The translations under genes and the position numbers were made by a program. From Sipunculus nudus (lineage: Eukaryota > Annelida > Sipuncula > Golfingiida > Sipunculidae), in contig CM049318.1 in the NCBI GenBank assembly GCA_026874595.1, forward strand, positions 39,267,956-39,331,955: 64,000 bases of DNA. The letters run 5' to 3'. This document shows, one piece after another, positions 3,042 through 64,000 of the stretch. Numbering within the stretch: the stretch's first letter is position 1; each line of letters begins with the position of its first letter. The notes beneath the pieces are model-generated. The model ran no database searches. It was not told the DNA's origin and saw only the letters and a list, made by a program, of their open reading frames with translations.

Positions 3042-4029
3042 GTCTAAATGTTTGTCTCTTTTTAGCCATTTGTGATTAAAGTGGCATGTTACCAGCATTC
3101 CTTTTGCCAAACATAGAAGGATTTGCATAATAAATATATTTATTTATATTTAATAAATATATAATATAATATATATATTTATTAGGGTTTTAAATATATC
3201 AGATGCGCATTCTTGTTTTTATGTAAGGATATATTTTTCACTTGACGGAAACATTTATCTTGTTGTCAGATAACAAAGATGCAATCTATGGAGTCTGAAT
3301 AACCTTCTTGATGAATAGAAAGGAGAATTTATAAAACCTGAAACAGCTCATAAGGAAGTAAACTGTAGAGTCCCAGGGTAATATGATGGAGGCCATGCGT
3401 TATTTTTAGCGAGAGCAGTGGTTTTTCTGTAATATCAATCCTCCAGGGATTTGTGGGTTTTGAAATTCTCGTAAAGCATCATGCTTCACGTGGAACAATA
3501 GCCACTCCTGTTTCATGACAGCTGAGTGGTTTTTGATTCCTCGTGGCTTGGCACAGTACCATCTGACGGGATCACTTTATAGCAGTATATCTGACATTCT
3601 TTATGTTTATACATTTTCTTGATATAATTAAGGTCTTTTTGTGACTATGGCCACACAGAAAAGATGAATAGTTCTATAAGACTTTGGAACCCTAAAAATA
3701 TGAAGTGATAGTATAGGTATGGCTCTTTATCCGTTGTCTGTCCAGTCATCTGGTCATCCATTAGCAGGGCACAAATCACAACTGCCTGTAACTAAAAATC
3801 TAGGGAGGTCCATTAAAAAATCTCCTTGGAAAGCTGAAATTAGGTCACTGCGACTTTTATCCTCCAAGCTATGGGGCTTGTAAGTACCCCCCAGAATAAT
3901 CAACAATTTGATACAAAACCTCCAATATCTTGATAATTAATGCATGGATTGTCATGAATCTTGCCTTGAATATTGACCATGACTAGTTTTGTCAGGGCTG
4001 ATGAAGAAAAACCTTTGCTAAAACAGTCT
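3042..4029. other. Non-coding stretch
   Basis: Nothing gene-like is visible. A dense A/T block made of TAAATATAT-type words sits at about 3125-3190. Confidence 0.45.
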
Positions 4030-17877: not shown

Positions 17878-19245
17878 TTTTAGCTCAGCTGACTATAAGA
17901 CATCTGAGCTATAGTCGTGGTCCATTGTCCGTCGTCCGTCCGTCTGTCGGGCCGTCCGTCCGGATGTCCGTCCGGATGTCTGTCCGTAAGACTGGCACTT
18001 TTCGACACCGTTGGACCTACGAATCTGAAATTCAGCATACAGTTAGATGTCCCCCAAAATCTCCTACCATGCCGAAAATTGGGTCAATTAGATTTCGTTC
18101 CTTCGAGATATTAGGGAAAAACCTCAATTTTTTATTAGAAATCTTTTTTCACACTTCAGGACTGCCTAATATCAAAACCACTCATCTGGTTTTCTTCATA
18201 TTTACCATAAATATTCCTCTATATAGTTCCTATGTACATGCCAGATATTAAGTCAGTATTATATATTTTAAAAAAGTTATGGGCCCAAACATAATGGACT
18301 TTGTAAAAAAATCAGGAAGATATTTGGTCACTTAAGACCAAAAGTGTTAAAGGTAGGGACTTTTTACCAGTAATACAACTTTAATTAATCAAAATTTAAT
18401 TGTATACCAAAAATTAGATCAAAATCTGTTAGATTTTTTTAAATATTGGCAAAAATATAAAATTGGTACCTTTTGCCCAACTTTGGCCACGGCATGTTTT
18501 TTTCTTGTAAGTACTGTGGATTTAATTTTCACAGCATGTATACATAAGGATTTAATCTGTTTAATTCTGAAATTTGAAAATAAAAGCTGCAAAATTAGGC
18601 TAGTTATTGAATTTTTTTGGAGGCTCTTGTTGTATTCCCTTACATTGTCAAGCAGTCCACTTTGATGACTGTAGGTCATTCAGTGCACATCTCTATGCTC
18701 CCCAGGCTGTTGGCATAATTTTAGAAGTCCCCAAAATCTCCTACCATACCGAAAATTGGGTCATTAGGACTTCGTTCCTTCGAGATATTAAGGAAAAAAA
18801 ACTCTGTTTTCCATAAAAAAAGCCATTGTTACACTTCAAGGCTGCCTAATATCAAAACCACTGATCTGTTTTTGATCGTATTTAGTATTCACATTCTTTC
18901 ATACATTCTCTATGAACATACCAAAAATTAGGTCAGTATTGGGTATTATTTTGAAGTTATGGGCCAAAAAATAATGCATTTTTTTTTAAAATCAGGAAAT
19001 ATATTTACTCACCTAACATGAGAATTGCTGAACCTAGAGACTTTTTTCAGGAATATAACTTTTTTTAATCAAGATTCAATTGTTTACCCAAAATTAGATC
19101 TGAATTTTGCAAATTTTTCAAGTTATTAGCATAAATAAAAAATCAATACCTTAAATTTTGTCCAACTTTGGCACTGTTGATTTATTTTTCACAGCATATA
19201 TACATAAGGATTTAATCTTTTAAAATCTGAAATTTCAAAGAAATT
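17878..19245 (+). repeat. Dispersed element family F: headed copy plus tandem second unit
   Basis: The head TTTTAGCTCAGCTGACTATA (17,878) is followed by CATCTGAGCTATAGTCG and a CCGTCCGTCC run. The body carries TCCCCCAAAATCTCCTACC, CCGAAAATTGGGTCA and TTCGTTCCTTCGAGATATTA. A second body unit without the head begins at about 18,723, a period near 678 bp, and repeats the same phrases through ACATAAGGATTTAATCT (about 19,200). A third copy with a head starts at 63,422. The ORFs over this region are repeat sequence. Confidence 0.8.
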
Positions 19246-20980
19246 GATTGGAAAGAATAGCTTTTATTCATGTTTTCATACACCATGTCAAGTGTTGTTT
19301 ACATCTAGCCCACCTAGTAGTACAGCCTTCACTTGCATTATGTAACCCACCCCAGGCAGCTTGCCTTGGGTCAGCTTGGCCACTACCAGCAGGCTTCCCC
19401 TCTGCCCTGCACTCTCCCCCCCCCCCAGATGGTGCATAAACTAGATAATGTTATTATTGTCTGTATTTGATTCATTCTTATTCTAGGCTGTGCTACATTT
19501 TAGATTTTGTATTGTACCACCAGGGTTACAATGATTAAAGTGTACATTTAATTGTGTCCACAAAGTGGTGTATTGCTATGAAAGTGTGGATGTTCATCAG
19601 ATAAGTAAAAAGTAAGTAAGAGTAAAAACTTCACTAGGTGTGAAATTGACTATTAATTCCAGTAATAAATTAAAACTGGGATAGTCATAAGCACAATGAT
19701 ATTGTTTGTCCCTCATTCAACCAACAGTGTGTATACTTTATTTGAAAAGATGTTTTATTTTATCAAATTTACTTTTATTTTATTTTGGTGAATAAAATTA
19801 AGCATGTACTGAAAACTCCAATGTGCAAAACCTTTTAATAGTGATTCAAGGAATATTCTTGTAGATGCCATGTTGTGGCATTATGTTCTTTTAAATTCAG
19901 TTTAAACATTTATGATTTAAAAATAATAAAATATATGTGTATGCATAATATGACCCAATATGAGCTACACTCTGGATATATGATGATTGCAACTTTTGCA
20001 ACAATTCTAATATTTTAACTTATATTTTCAGGTTTTTTTATTAAAAATTTATAAAACCTGTGAATAAAAAAAAATGATTCAGATAAAAACTTCTTAATGG
20101 AAAAAGTGGATATGCTTAAAAAAATAGGATTATATATAAACTTAAATGCATTATTCCCTTGAAAGTGAAATAAAGGTATTAGTCCATTCTGTCCACTTGC
20201 CTGTCCATCTGTAAATTTTCATATGCATCACAGTATCTCAAAACTTTTACTGTTTTTCTTCATGACAGTCTTGTCAGAGTATTAGTTTGCAATCATATAT
20301 TTAGAACTTTACTATAACCAAGTAGGAGGGCCCCTTTCCTCTTAGCTTTTCATATTCTTATATAAATGGAAAACATTACAATAGAATATTTCTACATCCA
20401 CCTTCGTGCTGCCCTCACTTTTCCCTTCTCCGAACCCCATCCCAAAGTCAGCCTCAGTAAGCAAGAACAAGATGAATCAGATATATTCATACTTTAATAT
20501 TTTGTATTACTATTCGTCCATAGGTACCTATGTACATGCTAGAAATTATGTCAATATTGTGTAATATGTAGACATAGTGGGCATCACAATAATGTACCTT
20601 GTCAAGACTAAAGAGATATTGTGTCATACAGTCACAAATTCATAGTTAATCATAACATCATATCTGTCAAATTGAAAGCTTGCAGACTACCATACACTTT
20701 AGATCCTTCAACAAATAGCCTTATCATCATTCTACTACTGCTTATTACTGCTGTCATTGCATTCATTTTTGCTCAAATATATCACAATTTTCAACCCCTC
20801 CTAAATAAATAAAAAATAAACCACTATATTTGACTCTATTAATCCATCAGTCAGGTTATTTCATTTATCATTTTCTCACATATTACATTACATTCCTTTA
20901 TAATAGCCCAACATGTCCATGATATTCATAAGCTTTATGGACTCGATATAGTGTCACAGTGGAGGAACATTTATAGTCCA
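19246..20980. other. Non-coding stretch
   Basis: AT-rich with a short (C)n tract near 19,418-19,428. No coding segment, SINE or element ends recognised. Confidence 0.4.
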
Positions 20981-26925: not shown

Positions 26926-27090
26926 TAGGTTTCCCAAGAACTCCTCCGTAACCGCTGGGCGGAATTTTACGAAACCCGGGATTATGTTCGGGTCACATGT
27001 GAACTGCTGCGCCCCGATTTTGTTTTGACCTCTGACCTTTCCTCTGCGCTCTGCCTCCGTTTGTGCGTCTGTTTCCACACATAAACCCAC

Positions 27091-28300
27091 ATATCTCGGG
27101 AACCGTTTGACGGATCAGGAAAATTTTTTTGCACAAATGTAGCGCTTTGAGAGCTTTATAACATATACAAAAAATGGTGGCGCCACCTGCAACTATGTTT
27201 GCACAGTGTCCATCTGTTCGTCTGCCTTGGGTTAAAATCACTCATATCTCTGCAGTGACTTGACTAATTCACCTGAAATTTGGCATGCGTATACATCCTG
27301 GATAGCTTTTCTGATTTTGTGACAGGTGGCACCACCTACATTCACGTTTACGCTGCAGACATCCAAGCTCATATCTCGGGAACCGTTTGACCGATCAGGA
27401 AAATTTTTTTGCACAAATGTAGCCCTTGGAAAGCTTTATAACATACACAAAAAATGGTGGCGCCACCTGCAACCATGTTTGCACAGTGTCCATCTGTTTG
27501 TCTGCCTTGGGTTAAAATCACTCATATCTCTGCAGTGACTTGACTAATTCACCTGAAATTTGGCATGCGTATACATCCTGGATAGCTTTTCTGATTTTGT
27601 GACAGGTGGCGCCACCTACATTCACGTTTACGCTGCAGACATCCAAGCTCATATCTTGGGAACCGTTTCACCTATCAGGAAAATTTTTTTGCACAAATGT
27701 AGCCCTTGGAGAGCTTTATAACATACACAAAAAATGGTGGCGCCACCTGCAACCATGTTTGCACAGTGTCCATCTGTTTGTCTGCCTTGGGTTAAAATCA
27801 CTCATATCTCTGCAGTGACTTGACTAATTCACCTGAAATTCGGCATGCGTATACATCCTGGATAGCTTTTCTGATTTTATGACAGGTGGCGCCACCTACA
27901 TTCACGTTTACGCTGCAGACATCCAAGCTCATATCTCGGGAACCGTTTGACTGATCAGGAAAATTTTTTTGCACAAATGTAGCCCTTGGAGAGCTTTATA
28001 ACATACGCAAAACTGGTGGCGCCACCTACAGCCATTTTTGCACAGCTCCTGTCTGTTTGTCTGCCATGGGATAAAATCACTCATATCTCAGCAGTGGTTT
28101 GACATATCTGGCTAAAATTTTGCAGGTTTGTACATCCATGACAGCTCTCTTGATTTTATGACAGGTGGAGCCACCTGCATTCTAGTTTATGCAGCAGACA
28201 TCCAAGCTCATATCTTGGGAACCGTTTGACCGATTGGGCCAAAGTTTTGCATGTGTATAGTTCTCACATAGCTCTTTATCATACGCAAAACTGGTGCCGT
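27091..28300 (+). repeat. 280-bp higher-order tandem array (dimer of ~140-bp monomers)
   Basis: The marker ATATCTCGGGAACCGTTT starts at 27,091, 27,371, 27,651, 27,931 and (diverged) 28,210, so the period is 280, 280, 280 and 279 bp. Each unit holds two related halves. One has ATATCTCGGGAACCGTTTGA then GCACAAATGTAG; the other has ATATCTCTGCAGTGACTTGA then GGCATGCGTATACATCC. Both lead into GGTGGCGCCACC. The palindrome lies at 27,176, 27,325 (one change), 27,456, 27,605, 27,736, 27,885, 28,015 and 28,164 (one change), with alternating spacings of 149 and 131 or 130 bp. The middle units are nearly identical and the last is diverged. The ORFs at 27,326-27,538 and 27,606-27,818 are one array unit read twice. 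Confidence 0.93.
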
Positions 28301-28610
28301 CACCTGCAACCATTTTTGCTCAGCGTCCATCTGATTGTCTGCCACGGGCTTAAATCACTCATATACATGTAGTTGTTTGACTTATCTGCCTTAAATATTG
28401 CATATGTATACAACTGGGACGGCTTTCTGGATTTTGTGGTGGGGGGGGGGAGGGGGGCAACCTTCATACACAATTTGGCTGCAGACATCCATGCTAATAT
28501 GCAATACTTCACTCTATTTCCCCTTGCCACTTAATCCATGCCTCACTTCACCCGTTCCACTCTGATTTAGGCGGATACACGTAGTCGCTTGTCGACTACC
28601 CGTATTCTAG

Positions 28611-38855: not shown

Positions 38856-38888
<33 letters not shown>
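38838..38888. repeat. (CA)n/(TA)n microsatellite, left of the element
   Basis: CACACACA followed by an alternating TA run reaching the element's left end. Confidence 0.9.
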
Positions 38889-38891
<3 letters not shown>

Positions 38892-40880
38892 AAGGCCCAG
38901 ATTGCGATCTGGACGGATCTTAGATCTGTCCAGCCCAAATTGCGATCGCAGTTCAGGCCGGCCCAAACTGCGATCGCAATCCAGGCTGGCCAGATCTTAG
39001 ATCTGTCCAGCCTATATTGCGATCGCAGTTTAGTCCGGCCAGGATTGCGATCTTGTCTTTCTTGCTTCAGGATCGCAATCTGGACTGGACAGATCTAAGA
39101 TCTGTCCAGTCAAGATTGCGATCCTAAACTTGACCAGCCCATATTGCGATCCAAGTGTTTCAGCTTGTTAATTTATAGTTATTTTAAAATTTAAAAAAGT
39201 AAAATATGTCAAAATTTTAAAATTTTAATTAGACAAGTACTGATTAAATATGTCAATATGTTTCACTAATAATATTAAAACTCGTGGCTGTATCAGCTGT
39301 CACAAGACTATGTAAATAATCAAAATCTGTATTGCTGGTTCCTCAATTTATGTTAATAAAATTAAACTTGCCCATCTCTAGTTTTCTCCTTGTACAATTT
39401 TATAGGGTGTTCTTATGCTTGAGTTATTTTTTATTCTTAAAATGGTTTCTTTTAAATTTTTTACATTTTTCTAAATAAAAATTTTTAAATATGATAAAAA
39501 ATCAGATCTTAGACAAGTTCTTGTTAAGATTTCTCTAATGTTGATAATTGTCATAAGACCTTTGCTATGTCTAGTGCTTAGATTGCTGTGAAAGTAGTCC
39601 AAAGTGAATATAATAGTTTTATGTTTAAATATAAATTAAAGCCATAAAACCAGGTACTTATGATCATTATGATCATACTTATGATCAATTTGTGAAATTT
39701 GTAAATTCTGGATTCTCAAGAACTTTGTTTTGCTGAAACTGAATAAATACCAGACATGATAAGAATACTTTGCAAAAATATTTGAATGCCAATATGAAAA
39801 TATGTACTCCATAATTTCATGCATAAAAATAGGAATACAGGTATAAATGAAAGTATTTGAATACAAATGCAAATACTTTCAAAATGTAATCATGAATGTA
39901 TTCATGAATATATTCTATAATATTATTTTAATAATCATTTATTTCAATTATATTATTAAAAGATCTTTTCATATGATGCTGTTATTATTTTTAATTTAAA
40001 TTATATTTGACACAATATTTATTAATTTATAATAAATAGTTATATTATTTAAGTTTTATTCTTGGGTAGGAATAACCAGTATTTATTAAATAAAAGTTCT
40101 CATTTGTAAAAATCAGAATTACCATGACTGATAATGGACAGGTTTTTTTCAAATAATTCTACTGCAATGTAGATAAAGTTATATGGCCAAGTCAAAACCT
40201 ATGTGAAAACAGCACACCATTCCAACTGTATATAATATAAATGACATCAATCCTCTTCCCTGTCTCCAAGGATATTATCATAATCTTACATAACTTGAGT
40301 TAAACACCATCAGCTCATAATGCAGCTTATATTACCACACAAAACCTGCACTTGCTACCTCCTCTTTCAAATCATATTTTGTGAGCATATAAAACCCCTG
40401 GTTACCTTGTTACCTTTTTTCAACAACCATGCAATACTAAATGAGTTGGTGAAACATCCCATGTTTCACTCCTGTGATTGTAAAAGCATGGATCACAATA
40501 TAAGGAGTGAAAATTGCCTTTCTGTATTATAATTGTATTTATTATGGGAAAATGGTACAATGCAATACCAAATGAGTTGGTAAAACAACCAATGTTTCAC
40601 TCCTGTGATTGTAAAAGCATGGATCGCAATATGGGCTGGTCAAGTTTAGGATCGCAATCTCGGCTGGACTGATCTTAGATCTGTCCAGACCAGATTGCAA
40701 TCCTGAAGCAAGAAAGAAGGATCGCAGTCTGGGCCGGACTAAACTGCAATCGCAATCTAGGCTGGACAGATCTAAGATCTGGCCAGCCTGGATTGCGATC
40801 GCAGTTTGGGCCGGCCTGAACTGCGATCGCAATTTGGGCTGGACAGATCTAAGATCCGTCCAGATCGCGATCTGGGCCTT

Positions 40881-40883
<3 letters not shown>
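38889..40883. mobile_element. 1,995-bp element with 264-bp terminal inverted repeats, inserted in a TA microsatellite
   Basis: The left arm (38,889-39,152) and right arm (40,620-40,883) are near-identical inverted copies beginning GTCAAGGCCCAGAT. Alternating TA dinucleotides abut both outer ends, which fits insertion at TA (a TA duplication cannot be distinguished from the microsatellite). Each arm is built from self-complementary words: AGATCTTAGATCT-type cores in CTGG..CCAG frames and TTGCGATCGCAGTT. The AT-rich interior of about 1.47 kb has no transposase frame, so the element is non-autonomous. The interior holds a ~131-bp-spaced duplication of GTTTCACTCCTGTGATTGTA (about 40,459 and 40,590). 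A Tc1/mariner-like origin is possible from TA targeting only. Confidence 0.9.

Positions 40884-40931
<48 letters not shown>
40884..40931. repeat. (TA)n microsatellite, right of the element
   Basis: Pure alternating AT from the element's right end to about 40,930; it reads as the other half of the left-hand microsatellite. Confidence 0.93.
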
Positions 40932-45439: not shown

Positions 45440-47258
45440 TTAGGCCAAAAATAAATAAAAGGTATGGTTCTCAAGCACCGCTTGTGTCAGTTTTAACCCC
45501 CTGCATCAAACATTTTTATTTTGATTTTCATTTTTCAAGAAGATAATACAATTTTGATCAGATATCCTTTGTTATATAGTGCCTTTGCCTGTTTAGCAAA
45601 ACAATTCTGTTATTTTCTTGCTCTTTCCTGATCATATGACATTTTTATTAAAACATACAAAAAAGGGTAAAATAAAATATAGGCTGCCGCACTGGTTTCT
45701 GAAAACAAGAGACCCAGGGGTCTAATGTTCACTCTGTGAATTACTGTGCAAGGTGGCAGGTGATTAAAAAAATGGCGAATGTGAAAATACCATTCATTCC
45801 TTTGCAAGTAGATACTGTCCTATTGCACAAGGTAGGTGGCGCCACCTGTCTGGATTATGAGAAACTTTCCAAGATGGATGCACATGCCAAATTTCAGACC
45901 AATACCATGACCAACTCCTGAGATATTAGTAATTTTTTACCCAAAGCAAATGTATGAATAGATGCAATGGGAAAACGATTGCAGAAAGCACCACCAATCT
46001 TAAGTACAAGATGGAAGAGTCCAATATCTATGGATATGCACAATTTCAGCTCAATACATTGAACCACTCCTGAGATTTGGGCTGTTATCTAAAAGACACC
46101 AAGGTTTGTACTGCAAAGAAAGGTCACCCATCATTGTTACCTACAACTACATAGAAAAGGGTACAAGTATGACAGTTTCGGAAAGATCAGTCCAAGGGTC
46201 TCAGAGGAGACTCTGTTTTGGTGGATTATAACAAAGAAATACTTAATGACATATCTTGGAAAAAGCAGAAAAGACCATTACAGCCTGTAGAAAGTAGGTC
46301 AAAACGGGTGGCGCCACCTGCAGGTCGAAATCATTTAGCAGTCAAATGATCAATAGTCCTGTGAAATTTGAAACTGAAGGCTGCAGCAGGTCCTAAATTA
46401 TTTGGTGACAGACAACACATCATGTATGGAAACACATCAAGTTGTTGAATTTATACTCAAATTATTCCCCTTCCTCTAAGGAACTGTTGACTATGATATG
46501 AAGGCCAAAATATTATTACTTTATGACTTATCTTGGAAGAAGTGGAAAAGACCATTACGTCCAGCAGAAAGTAGGTTAACACAGGTGGCGCCACCTGGAG
46601 GTGAAAATCATATAGCAGTCACATGATCAATATTCCTGTGAAAACTGAAACTGAAGGCTGCAGCAGTTCCTAAGATACTTGGAAACAGACTAGACATCAT
46701 GTATAGAAACACATCAAGTTGTCAAATTTTGCAATTGACACAATTTGAAGTTCCGTAGAGATGCCATCTTGAAAATGACTTGACTGAATTCATACTCAAA
46801 TTATTCCTCTTCCTCTAAGAAATTGTTGACTATGATATGAAGGCCAAACTGTTATTACTTTATGACTTATCTCAGAAGACGTGGAAAAGACCATTTCATC
46901 CCGCAAAAAGTAGGTCAACACAGGTGGTGCCACCTGGAGGTCAAAATCATTTAGCAGTCAAATGATCAATATTCCTGTGAAATTTGAAACTGAAGGCTGC
47001 AGCAGTTCCTTAAATATTTGGTAACAGACTAGACATCATGTATAGAAACACATCAAGTTGTCAAATTTTGCGATCGACACAATTCAGTAATTCTGCAAAG
47101 TTTCATGAAGGTAGCTGCTGTGGCTGTTAAGATATTTGGTAACAGACGGTGGACAGTGGACGGCGGATGCTGCGCCATGGCATAAGTTCACAGAGTGAAC
47201 TAAAAAGTGCCTGGGAACCATACCTTTACAAGAAATTGGTAATTTTTTTGGCTTTATT
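45440..47258 (+). mobile_element. MITE-1 copy 4, split by an internal ~1.5-kb element
   Basis: The left half (TTAGGCCAAAAATAAATAAA, GGTATGGTTCTCAAGCACC, through TTTCTGAAAA at about 45,706) is ordinary MITE-1 sequence. The matching right terminus GTGCCTGGGAACCATACCTT is found only at 47,207-47,226. The sequence between belongs to another element. Either that element inserted in the MITE, or this is a longer family member from which short copies derived by deletion. Confidence 0.75.
45707..47206 (-). mobile_element. Element nested in MITE-1, with inverted tips and a tandem core
   Basis: Near the left edge is ATGTTCACTCTGTGAATTAC and at the right edge GTTCACAGAGTGAAC, an inverted pair; on the minus strand this reads GTTCACTCTGTGAACTTATG and then GCCATGGCGCAGC. 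The core consists of tandem units bearing GGTGGCGCCACC at 45,835, 46,307 and 46,584 and a one-change version at 46,923 (spacings 277 and 339 for the last three). In reverse, its units align with the ~140-bp monomer of the 27-kb array (TGAAATTTGGCATG, CATCTTGGAAAG). No coding capacity seen. Confidence 0.7.
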
Positions 47259-63421: not shown

Positions 63422-64000
63422 TTTTTAGCTCAGCTGACTATAAGTCATCTGAGCAATATTCGTGGTCCATTGTCCATCGTCCGTCCATCTGTCCGTCCGT
63501 CCGTCCATAGATGTGGCACATTTTGAAACTGTAAGACCTAGGAATCCAAAATTCAGCATAATGTTAGATGTCCCCAAGTTCTCCTACCAAGCCGAAAACT
63601 GGGTCTTTGCGACTTTGTTCCTTTGAGAAATTAAGGAAAAACCTCAATTTTTTATTAAAAAACTATTTTTACACTTCAGGACTGCCTAATTTCAAAACCA
63701 CTCATCTGTTTTTCCTCATATTTACCATAAATAATCCTCTATATATTTCCTATGTACATGCCAGAAAGTAGGTCTGTATTATATAATTTAAAGAAGTTAT
63801 GGGCCCAGACATAATGCATTTTGTAAATAATCAAGAAAGAAATTTGATCACTTAACACAAAACTTGTTAAAGCTAAGCACTTTTTTCCAGTTATATTACT
63901 TTTATTAATCAAAAATAAATTGTACACCCAAAATTAAATCAAAATCTTTTAAATTTTTTAAAATATCAGCAAAAATAAAAAAATGGTACCTTAAATTTTG
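63422..64000 (+). repeat. Dispersed element family F, copy 3, runs off the window
   Basis: The head TTTTAGCTCAGCTGACTATA and CATCTGAGCAATATTCG lead into a CCGTCCGTCCGTCC run. The body has CTCCTACCAAGCCGAAAACT and TTGTTCCTTTGAGAAATTA, collinear with 17,878-18,470. The 3' end lies beyond the window. Confidence 0.8.

Follow-up and report, generated by a model that had tools for sequence, protein, structure and literature searches.

Organization of the element and its arms

The window analyzed here is the 64,000-nucleotide stretch C13:39267956-39331955 of the 1.43-Gb, 153-contig genome of Sipunculus nudus. Comparison with copies elsewhere in this genome places an element at exactly 38888-40884 of the window, with TGTCAAGG at its start and CCTTGACA at its end. 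Its inverted arms (38889-39153 versus 40620-40883) align over 265 columns at 95.1% identity, and the copy comparison revealed that each true end lies 1 base outside the limits of this alignment (38889/40883). As bounded by the copies, the left arm or terminal inverted repeat (38888-39153, forward strand) starts with TGTCAAGGCCCAGAT, and the right arm (40619-40884, reverse strand) ends with CCTTGACA; the inverted arms proposed in the first-pass annotation are thereby confirmed, with both ends shifted outward by a base. The element is flanked by two copies of the 4-bp target duplication TATA. The left copy (38884-38887) sits inside a TA run and is placed by analogy with relatives, i.e., from unfilled sites and 34 flank pairs (see below), and the size of the right copy (40885-40888) comes from the same unfilled sites of relatives and flank pairs.

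Between the arms lies an AT-rich interior (39154-40618) with a GC content of 26%, versus 51% in the arm. In agreement with the earlier description of an AT-rich interior without a transposase, an ORF scan of this region detected none with a length of at least 85 aa; an Rfam scan of the window gave no match at the gathering threshold. Two parts of the interior, 39563-40042 (reverse strand, ~80%) and 40176-40395 (reverse strand, ~78%), resemble the ~730 bp at the start of a dispersed 2.6-kb repeat. Copies of this repeat that are 92-94% alike are also found inside other elements of the A type, to which the window element belongs, and of the related B type (L010, L037, L038, L039, and L041). By this likeness and these nested copies, the interior is, at least in part, repeat DNA of another kind, and the stretch at 39563-40042 is probably an older related repeat within the element. 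The 2.6-kb repeat itself starts with ACAAGGGACCTATGGGTCACG, ends with a hairpin followed by CTAA, and is perhaps Helitron-like; parts or copies of it, which often lie within A- or B-type elements, also occupy 17881-19276 and 63426-64000 of the window. Closer to the right end of the element is a 76-bp direct repeat (40426-40501 and 40557-40632, both on the forward strand and 92% identical), the second copy of which extends into the right arm. A ~339-bp tandem repeat at 46240-47084 of the window bears no relation to the element.

The arms are indeed built of palindromes, as had been claimed from the first reading: palindromic words cover 56% of the left and 41% of the right arm, as against a median of 7% (95th percentile, 25%; maximum, 33%) in 154 other 265-bp pieces of the window. 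A denser background of 205 250-bp pieces has a median of 7%, a 95th percentile of 26%, and one maximum of 52%; the coverage of the outer 250 bp of the left arm is 59%. The first-pass annotation proposed that such arms could form cruciforms; as single-stranded DNA, the left arm folds strongly, at -86.8 kcal/mol versus -34.4 (sd 4.0) for shuffled versions (z -13.2, with 0/200 as low). From the tip inward, the left arm displays a first dyad at 38898-38911, centered at element position 17.5 (CAGATTGCGATCTG); a second at 38909-38933 (element positions 22-46, center 34); a third at 38934-38957 (element positions 47-70, center 58.5); a further one at 38983-39013, centered at position 111 (AGGCTGGCCAGATCTTAGATCTGTCCAGCCT); and a long inner palindrome at 39066-39128 with 31-bp arms and 2 mismatches. 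The second and third dyads keep their positions in other subfamilies, where their letters covary.

Copies in the genome and history of the arms

An arm search of the genome returned 793 candidates, and the best 40 of these, which were scored, were all full or nearly full arms. The exact tip of the subfamily, TGTCAAGGCCCAGATYGCGATCTGGAC, has 367 matches in the genome (181+186), and the wider superfamily tip pattern, TATATGTCANNNNNNAGATNNNNATC, has 1,629 (821+808); the reversed-pattern controls gave 0 and 0+1, respectively. By these searches the element is plainly multicopy, and among the matches listed, all superfamily tips lie on the large contigs C1-C17. The 20 loci that we fetched had the best-scoring arms among the 40 scored. 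Fourteen of them, together with the window copy, constitute a set of 15 near-complete copies with a length of 1.95-2.02 kb and a divergence of 0.5-2.2% from their own majority sequence; L010, L012, L019, L023, L025, and L026, which are nested, rearranged, or missing one end, fall outside this set. The earlier reading of a mobile element whose inverted arms are built of palindromes is correct, and the inverted layout recurs at independent loci. Palindromic DNA is difficult to sequence and assemble, and an inverted duplication could in principle be an assembly artifact; given the identical layout at 15 near-complete loci with differing flanks and the existence of unfilled relatives of the insertion sites, the chance of this is negligible.

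The close match between the arms had originally been attributed to either recent activity or gene conversion, and only the first of these survives comparison of the copies. The divergence of 0.5-2.2%, which is partly a product of the selection of best-scoring arms, shows that the closest copies were recently active; as the copies examined were the closest ones, the family as a whole may be older. Across the 15 copies, left arms are 98.1% identical to each other, as are right arms (98.1%), and left-right identity is 94.3%, with 12 differences between left and right arms present as the majority state. We accordingly reject recent gene conversion between the arms as the source of their likeness, since these left-right differences are common to the copies. 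Only 1 of the 12 differences lies in the outer ~127 bp of the arm, the other 11 being in the inner ~138 bp (Fisher p = 0.006), and on this account the outer half may be the constrained part.

The target site and its duplication

We compiled 34 flank pairs, 31 from the A subfamily and one each from three other subfamilies. The rows include L010, L012, and L078/L079 and exclude L024 (mutated left tip), L019, L023, L025, and L026 (one end), as well as L044, L061, L074, and L075. L076-L081 were selected by a pattern requiring TATA in the flank; the other 31 rows were not, and 15 of these 31 were selected by the exact tip. Immediately left of TGTC, 32 of the 34 pairs have TATA and 2 have CATA; immediately right of GACA, 29 have TATA, 2 have CATA, 2 have TATG, and 1 has TATT. 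All 34 carry a purine (A/G) at position -5 and a pyrimidine (T/C) at position +5. We recorded this pattern, RTATA|...|TATAY, before comparing it with the published Ginger2 target. Among all 367 exact tips, 19 adjoin VVTA, comprising 16 CATA, 3 AATA, and no GATA. One of the rows, the C-type element L078/L079 (C1:32932646-32935055), has flanks that are inverted copies of each other and evidently represents an inverted duplication of one junction rather than an independent insertion pair.

The two flanks are identical over 4 bp in 29/34 pairs and not identical in the remaining 5; over 2 bp, they are identical in 32/34. At the 19 sites with short tracts, they are identical at 4 bp in 16 cases, at 5 bp in none, at 6 bp in 4, and at 8 or 9 bp in none, which excludes longer duplications; the four 6-bp identities are of a kind that TA runs alone can give. 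The first-pass annotation had both ends abutting TA microsatellite. This holds for the window copy and does not extend to the family, for 21/34 target sites have a TA run of at most 10 bp and only 9/34 have one of 20 bp or more. The flank pairs and unfilled sites reveal RTATAY as the target, with 4 bp duplicated, rather than simply TA or (TA)n.

Unfilled relatives of three insertions bear directly on the size of the duplication. The clearest is L062/L063, which is inserted in a repeat: among the matches listed, the best fit to unfilled copies is obtained at three places when exactly 4 bp are taken out. A 4-bp join scores 131 bits against L016 (3 bp, 124; 5 bp, 123), 126 bits against the window near 18.5 kb (3 bp, 120; 5 bp, 118), and 70.7 bits against L041 (3 bp, 64.4; 5 bp, 62.6). 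In L042/L043, CATA is duplicated, and a 2-bp duplication does not fit. Among the matches listed, its 4-bp join with window positions 3939-3942 is of equal length and scores 153 bits (5 bp, 156), and a 5-bp join also has a slight advantage in both comparisons with L009 and at one of two places in L020. Positions 3939-3942 of the window are related to the target of the A-type copy at C1:28663906 and are unfilled. The third, L027, lies within a 280-bp satellite unit reading GGATGTATACGC and has one extra TA; among the matches listed, L033, L037, and L041 favor a join of 6 bp, and the window, L020, and L031 give about equal scores for 4 and 6 bp. A genome pattern search for an empty palindromic target gave 0 matches. 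There is, then, one clean unfilled insertion (L062/L063) with a 4-bp duplication and two compatible with it (L042/L043 and L027), and we conclude from flank identity and the one clean unfilled site that the target is a 4-bp TATA duplicated within RTATAY.

The 280-bp satellite forms an array at 27090-28500 of the window (CATATCTCGGGAACCG...), with related units in L020, L027, L031, L033, L037, and L041. The unit contains GGATGTATACGC or a close variant of it, where elements of the A (L027), C (L078), and G (L033) types have inserted.

Foldback elements with modular arms include the sea urchin TU element and the FB and Galileo elements of Drosophila. Compared by description only, these and FARE1 of Arabidopsis, which is cited as Mutator-like in PMC4486113, are like the present element in having long arms of internal repeats and little coding capacity. 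Closer in appearance are the plant MITEs that target (TA)n, namely, MuTAnT, Ac-mMITE, and the Micron and TAFT elements cited in PMC4486113, all with frequent (TA)n flanks; MuTAnT also has long modular foldback arms (PMC4486113). A Mutator-type, microsatellite-targeting MITE like MuTAnT of Medicago or Ac-mMITE of pineapple would share with the present element the long modular foldback arms and the many (TA)n insertions described for these elements (PMC4486113 and PMC8449440). However, they are plant elements with Mutator affinity and reported duplications of 9/10 bp (PMC4486113 and PMC8449440), whereas here none of the 19 short-tract sites shows identity over 8 or 9 bp, and TA runs are no longer than 10 bp at 21/34 sites; we regard such an assignment as next to impossible. 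A Tc1/mariner-type MITE, for which the reported duplication is a 2-bp TA (PMC10045372), would account for the 2-bp identity of 32/34 flank pairs, but the clean unfilled site of L062/L063 requires 4 bp and the CATA duplication of L042/L043 cannot be reconciled with 2 bp, making this origin very improbable. We rejected three further groups on their published descriptions: Ginger1, with CCGG/CCGT targets (PMC2836005) where the duplication here is TATA; ISL2EU, with an AT duplication in A|AT|T (PMC4482050) as against the 4-bp TATA; and IS3EU/GingerRoot, with a 6-bp duplication (PMC10045372), as only 4/19 short-tract sites are identical at 6 bp and the ends here are TG..CA.

Probable affinity with Ginger2/Tdd transposons

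The first-pass annotation had recognized no named family; we found that Ginger2/Tdd fits by its ends, 4-bp duplication, and RTATAY target. These are Gypsy-integrase-like DNA transposons for which TGTNR termini, 4-bp duplications (5 bp in TDD-4/5), and an RTATAY target are described (PMC2836005). In the present family, TGTCA...TGACA is found at both ends of the 15 near-complete copies, except for the mutated left tip of L024; copies chosen by pattern carry these letters by selection. The shared features are thus the TGTNR ends, the 4-bp duplication, RTATAY, and long inverted arms. The arm length of 265 bp is above the range given for animal Ginger2 elements (~50-180 bp) and inside that of TDD-4/5 (260-297 bp) (PMC2836005). 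The element differs from Ginger2/Tdd in being non-coding and in having arms made of covarying dyads: the available text of the Ginger2 paper carries no mention of palindrom-, subterminal, or microsatellite (PMC2836005), and among titles and abstract openings in the openly accessible literature we found none describing such arms in Ginger2. It also differs in abundance, with 367 exact subfamily and 1,629 superfamily tips versus at most ">50" copies in the table of Bao, Kapitonov and Jurka 2010 (PMC2836005). That source lists a Ginger2 member from the snail Littorina saxatilis, and in molluscs Ginger elements are reported as less represented, with 98 identified (PMC10294476).

The Ginger2 transposase is described as an H2C2 zinc finger joined to a DDE core, with no GPY/F or YPYY (PMC2836005). 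The longer relative with a DDE transposase between the same arms that had been anticipated was not found in the eight long A- or B-type loci that we read. ORF lists of the long A-type tip pairs L037, L038, L040, L082, and L083 (the last two examined for ORFs only) and of the long B-type pairs L039 and L041 contained no transposase ORF, and a scan for HHCC+DDE spacing, the only one applied to the long A-type locus L010, gave none there. The 2.6-kb repeat has inserted in L010, L037, L038, L039, and L041, and tandem repeats are present in L037, L040, and L041. Over 335 kb, the HHCC+DDE spacing scan returned 7 matches, each broken by 5-26 stops, and no intact transposase. Genome searches for the rve and H2C2 domains (best 150 of 4,779 and of 6,033 candidates, respectively) were crowded by apparent Gypsy integrases in long Gypsy-type ORFs; three rve pieces that we read were Gypsy-like in appearance, and on C1 below 60.3 Mb no rve match among those listed was seen by eye within 8 kb of a listed tip. 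The best rve matches lie on C106, C110, C118, C128, and C135 (97-105 bits versus 74 for the next); these contigs look like bacterial contaminants with IS-type transposases.

We consider a non-autonomous Ginger2-type family moved in trans to be the best explanation, with a probability of about 0.8; as the defining transposase was not found, we use the label "non-autonomous, Ginger2-like." In favor of a different or undescribed DDE superfamily (an integrase-like one such as IS481EU or IS3EU/GingerRoot, or an unrelated one) that shares TGT...ACA ends, the 4-bp duplication, and the TATA target, no transposase was seen here, and IS481EU is described as having TG..CA-type ends and, in some families, 4-bp duplications (PMC10045372). 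Nevertheless, IS481EU is reported from parabasalids and also makes duplications of ~15 and ~25 bp, IS3EU/GingerRoot usually has a 6-bp duplication and mostly TA..TA ends (PMC10045372), Ginger1 targets CCGG/CCGT (PMC2836005), and among the groups compared by description RTATAY is given for Ginger2 only. We therefore judge this alternative unlikely. Under the Ginger2-type explanation, a Gypsy-integrase-like transposase encoded at another place in the genome would bind the arms, cut at the TGT/ACA ends, and join the cut ends to target strands 4 bp apart.

Ginger2 elements are relatives of the integrases of LTR retrotransposons and retroviruses and their published copy numbers per host are low. 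An animal family of this type that is large, young, and non-coding would supply hundreds of recent insertions for measuring the choice of RTATAY, and its covarying dyads would offer a direct way into how an integrase-like transposase recognizes long ends and how this changes over time.

Sister subfamilies and the covariation of arm dyads

Other elements have TGTCA and AGAT....ATC in their tips, as the window element does, and differ from it elsewhere. We coined the labels A (the window element), B, C, D, D2, E, F, F2, and G for these subfamilies. A pattern with AGGT behind TGTCA matches 36 tips of G-type and other elements, its two close pairs being ~0.97 kb apart, and the pattern TGTCAC matches 173 tips of D and E types, with two pairs 2.9 and 3.1 kb apart among the matches listed (C7:51233610-51236528 and C4:52914474-52917580), spacings close to the length published for small Ginger2 elements.

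The dyads at positions 22-46 and 47-70 recur with different letters in 15 tips of the A, B, C, D, D2, F, and G subfamilies. This set comprises the window tip and 14 of 80 tip rows, all free of indels over their first 75 bp. It leaves out A and B tips that are near-duplicates; L034, L036, L084, L091, L092, and L093, which carry indels or have poor dyads; and F2 (L013), which does not match the tip pattern. Strict pairing within a sequence is 83% (22-46) and 67% (47-70), as against 54% and 44% when the halves are taken from different subfamilies, and by strict pairing the centers of both dyads are the best among those scanned. In the alignment of the 15 tips, 18/24 pairs have changes on both sides. 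The covariation score, which counts G-T as a pair, is 0.577, versus 0.255 +/- 0.023 for shuffles (0/500 reach it), which ignore relatedness, and at most 0.149 for slid partners, which keep relatedness but over which the tested structure is favored by having been read off the tested sequences.

Some of the centers recur among seven longer arms, one per subfamily: center 34 in 6/7 (not in E), 58.5 in 5/7 (C at 60.5), 17.5 in 3/7, 72.5 in 3/7 (D at 72.0), and 86.5 in 3/7 (C at 88.5), with further centers at 121.5, 135.5, and 149.5 in B; 123.5, 137.5, and 151.5 in C; and 135.5 in A. Real arms have 3-15 dyad centers each, versus an average of 0.2-1.0 after shuffling. Inward of ~58 the centers follow 14-bp steps, the two outermost steps being 16.5 and 24.5 bp, and this spacing resembles that of ~14-bp half-sites whose orientation alternates. 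Some relatives fit the dyad model poorly: E (L034) has no dyad at center 34 and a palindrome coverage of 0.25, and F2 (L013) has a coverage of 0.11, both within the background range.

The most unusual aspect of the family is that dyad symmetry is kept at fixed positions while the letters covary between subfamilies. With moderate confidence, we interpret the dyads as putative binding sites of a dimeric protein, either the transposase or a partner, such that each subfamily would have its own site, selection for binding would keep the symmetry, and the letters would change together with the binding protein. A comparable arrangement is seen in En/Spm, a member of the CACTA superfamily with a 3-bp duplication, where a transposon protein binds the subterminal TNPA sites, which are short motifs arranged as inverted pairs; the likeness is in working only, and no relation is claimed.

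A mutation process, i.e., quasi-palindrome correction by template switching in hairpins, could instead have created and maintained the palindromes. It would likewise keep the dyads while the letters change, and the very strong folding of the arm as a single strand (z -13.2) speaks for it. In the 15 young copies, however, 39 stem changes are one-sided and none is a compensating double change, which argues against fast but not slow correction; this count used the dyad positions of the left arm for the right arm as well, although the two are of unequal length by one base, and a change within overlapping dyads may have been counted twice. The constancy of dyad centers across subfamilies also speaks against such a process, albeit compatible with slow correction, and we hold it to be somewhat unlikely as the source of the symmetry. 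As a tentative proposal, which we place slightly short of even, the subfamilies could be Ginger2-like lineages with different end codes, each altered coordinately over the arm and together with its own transposase, with the symmetry under selection. If so, they would represent a natural series of orthogonal transposon-end specificities in one animal genome.

Very short A-type derivatives that consist of arm pieces also occur: L074 (C1:33277835-33278067), made of arm pieces only, has 233 bp between its tips, and L075 (C3:9345102-9345245) has 144 bp.
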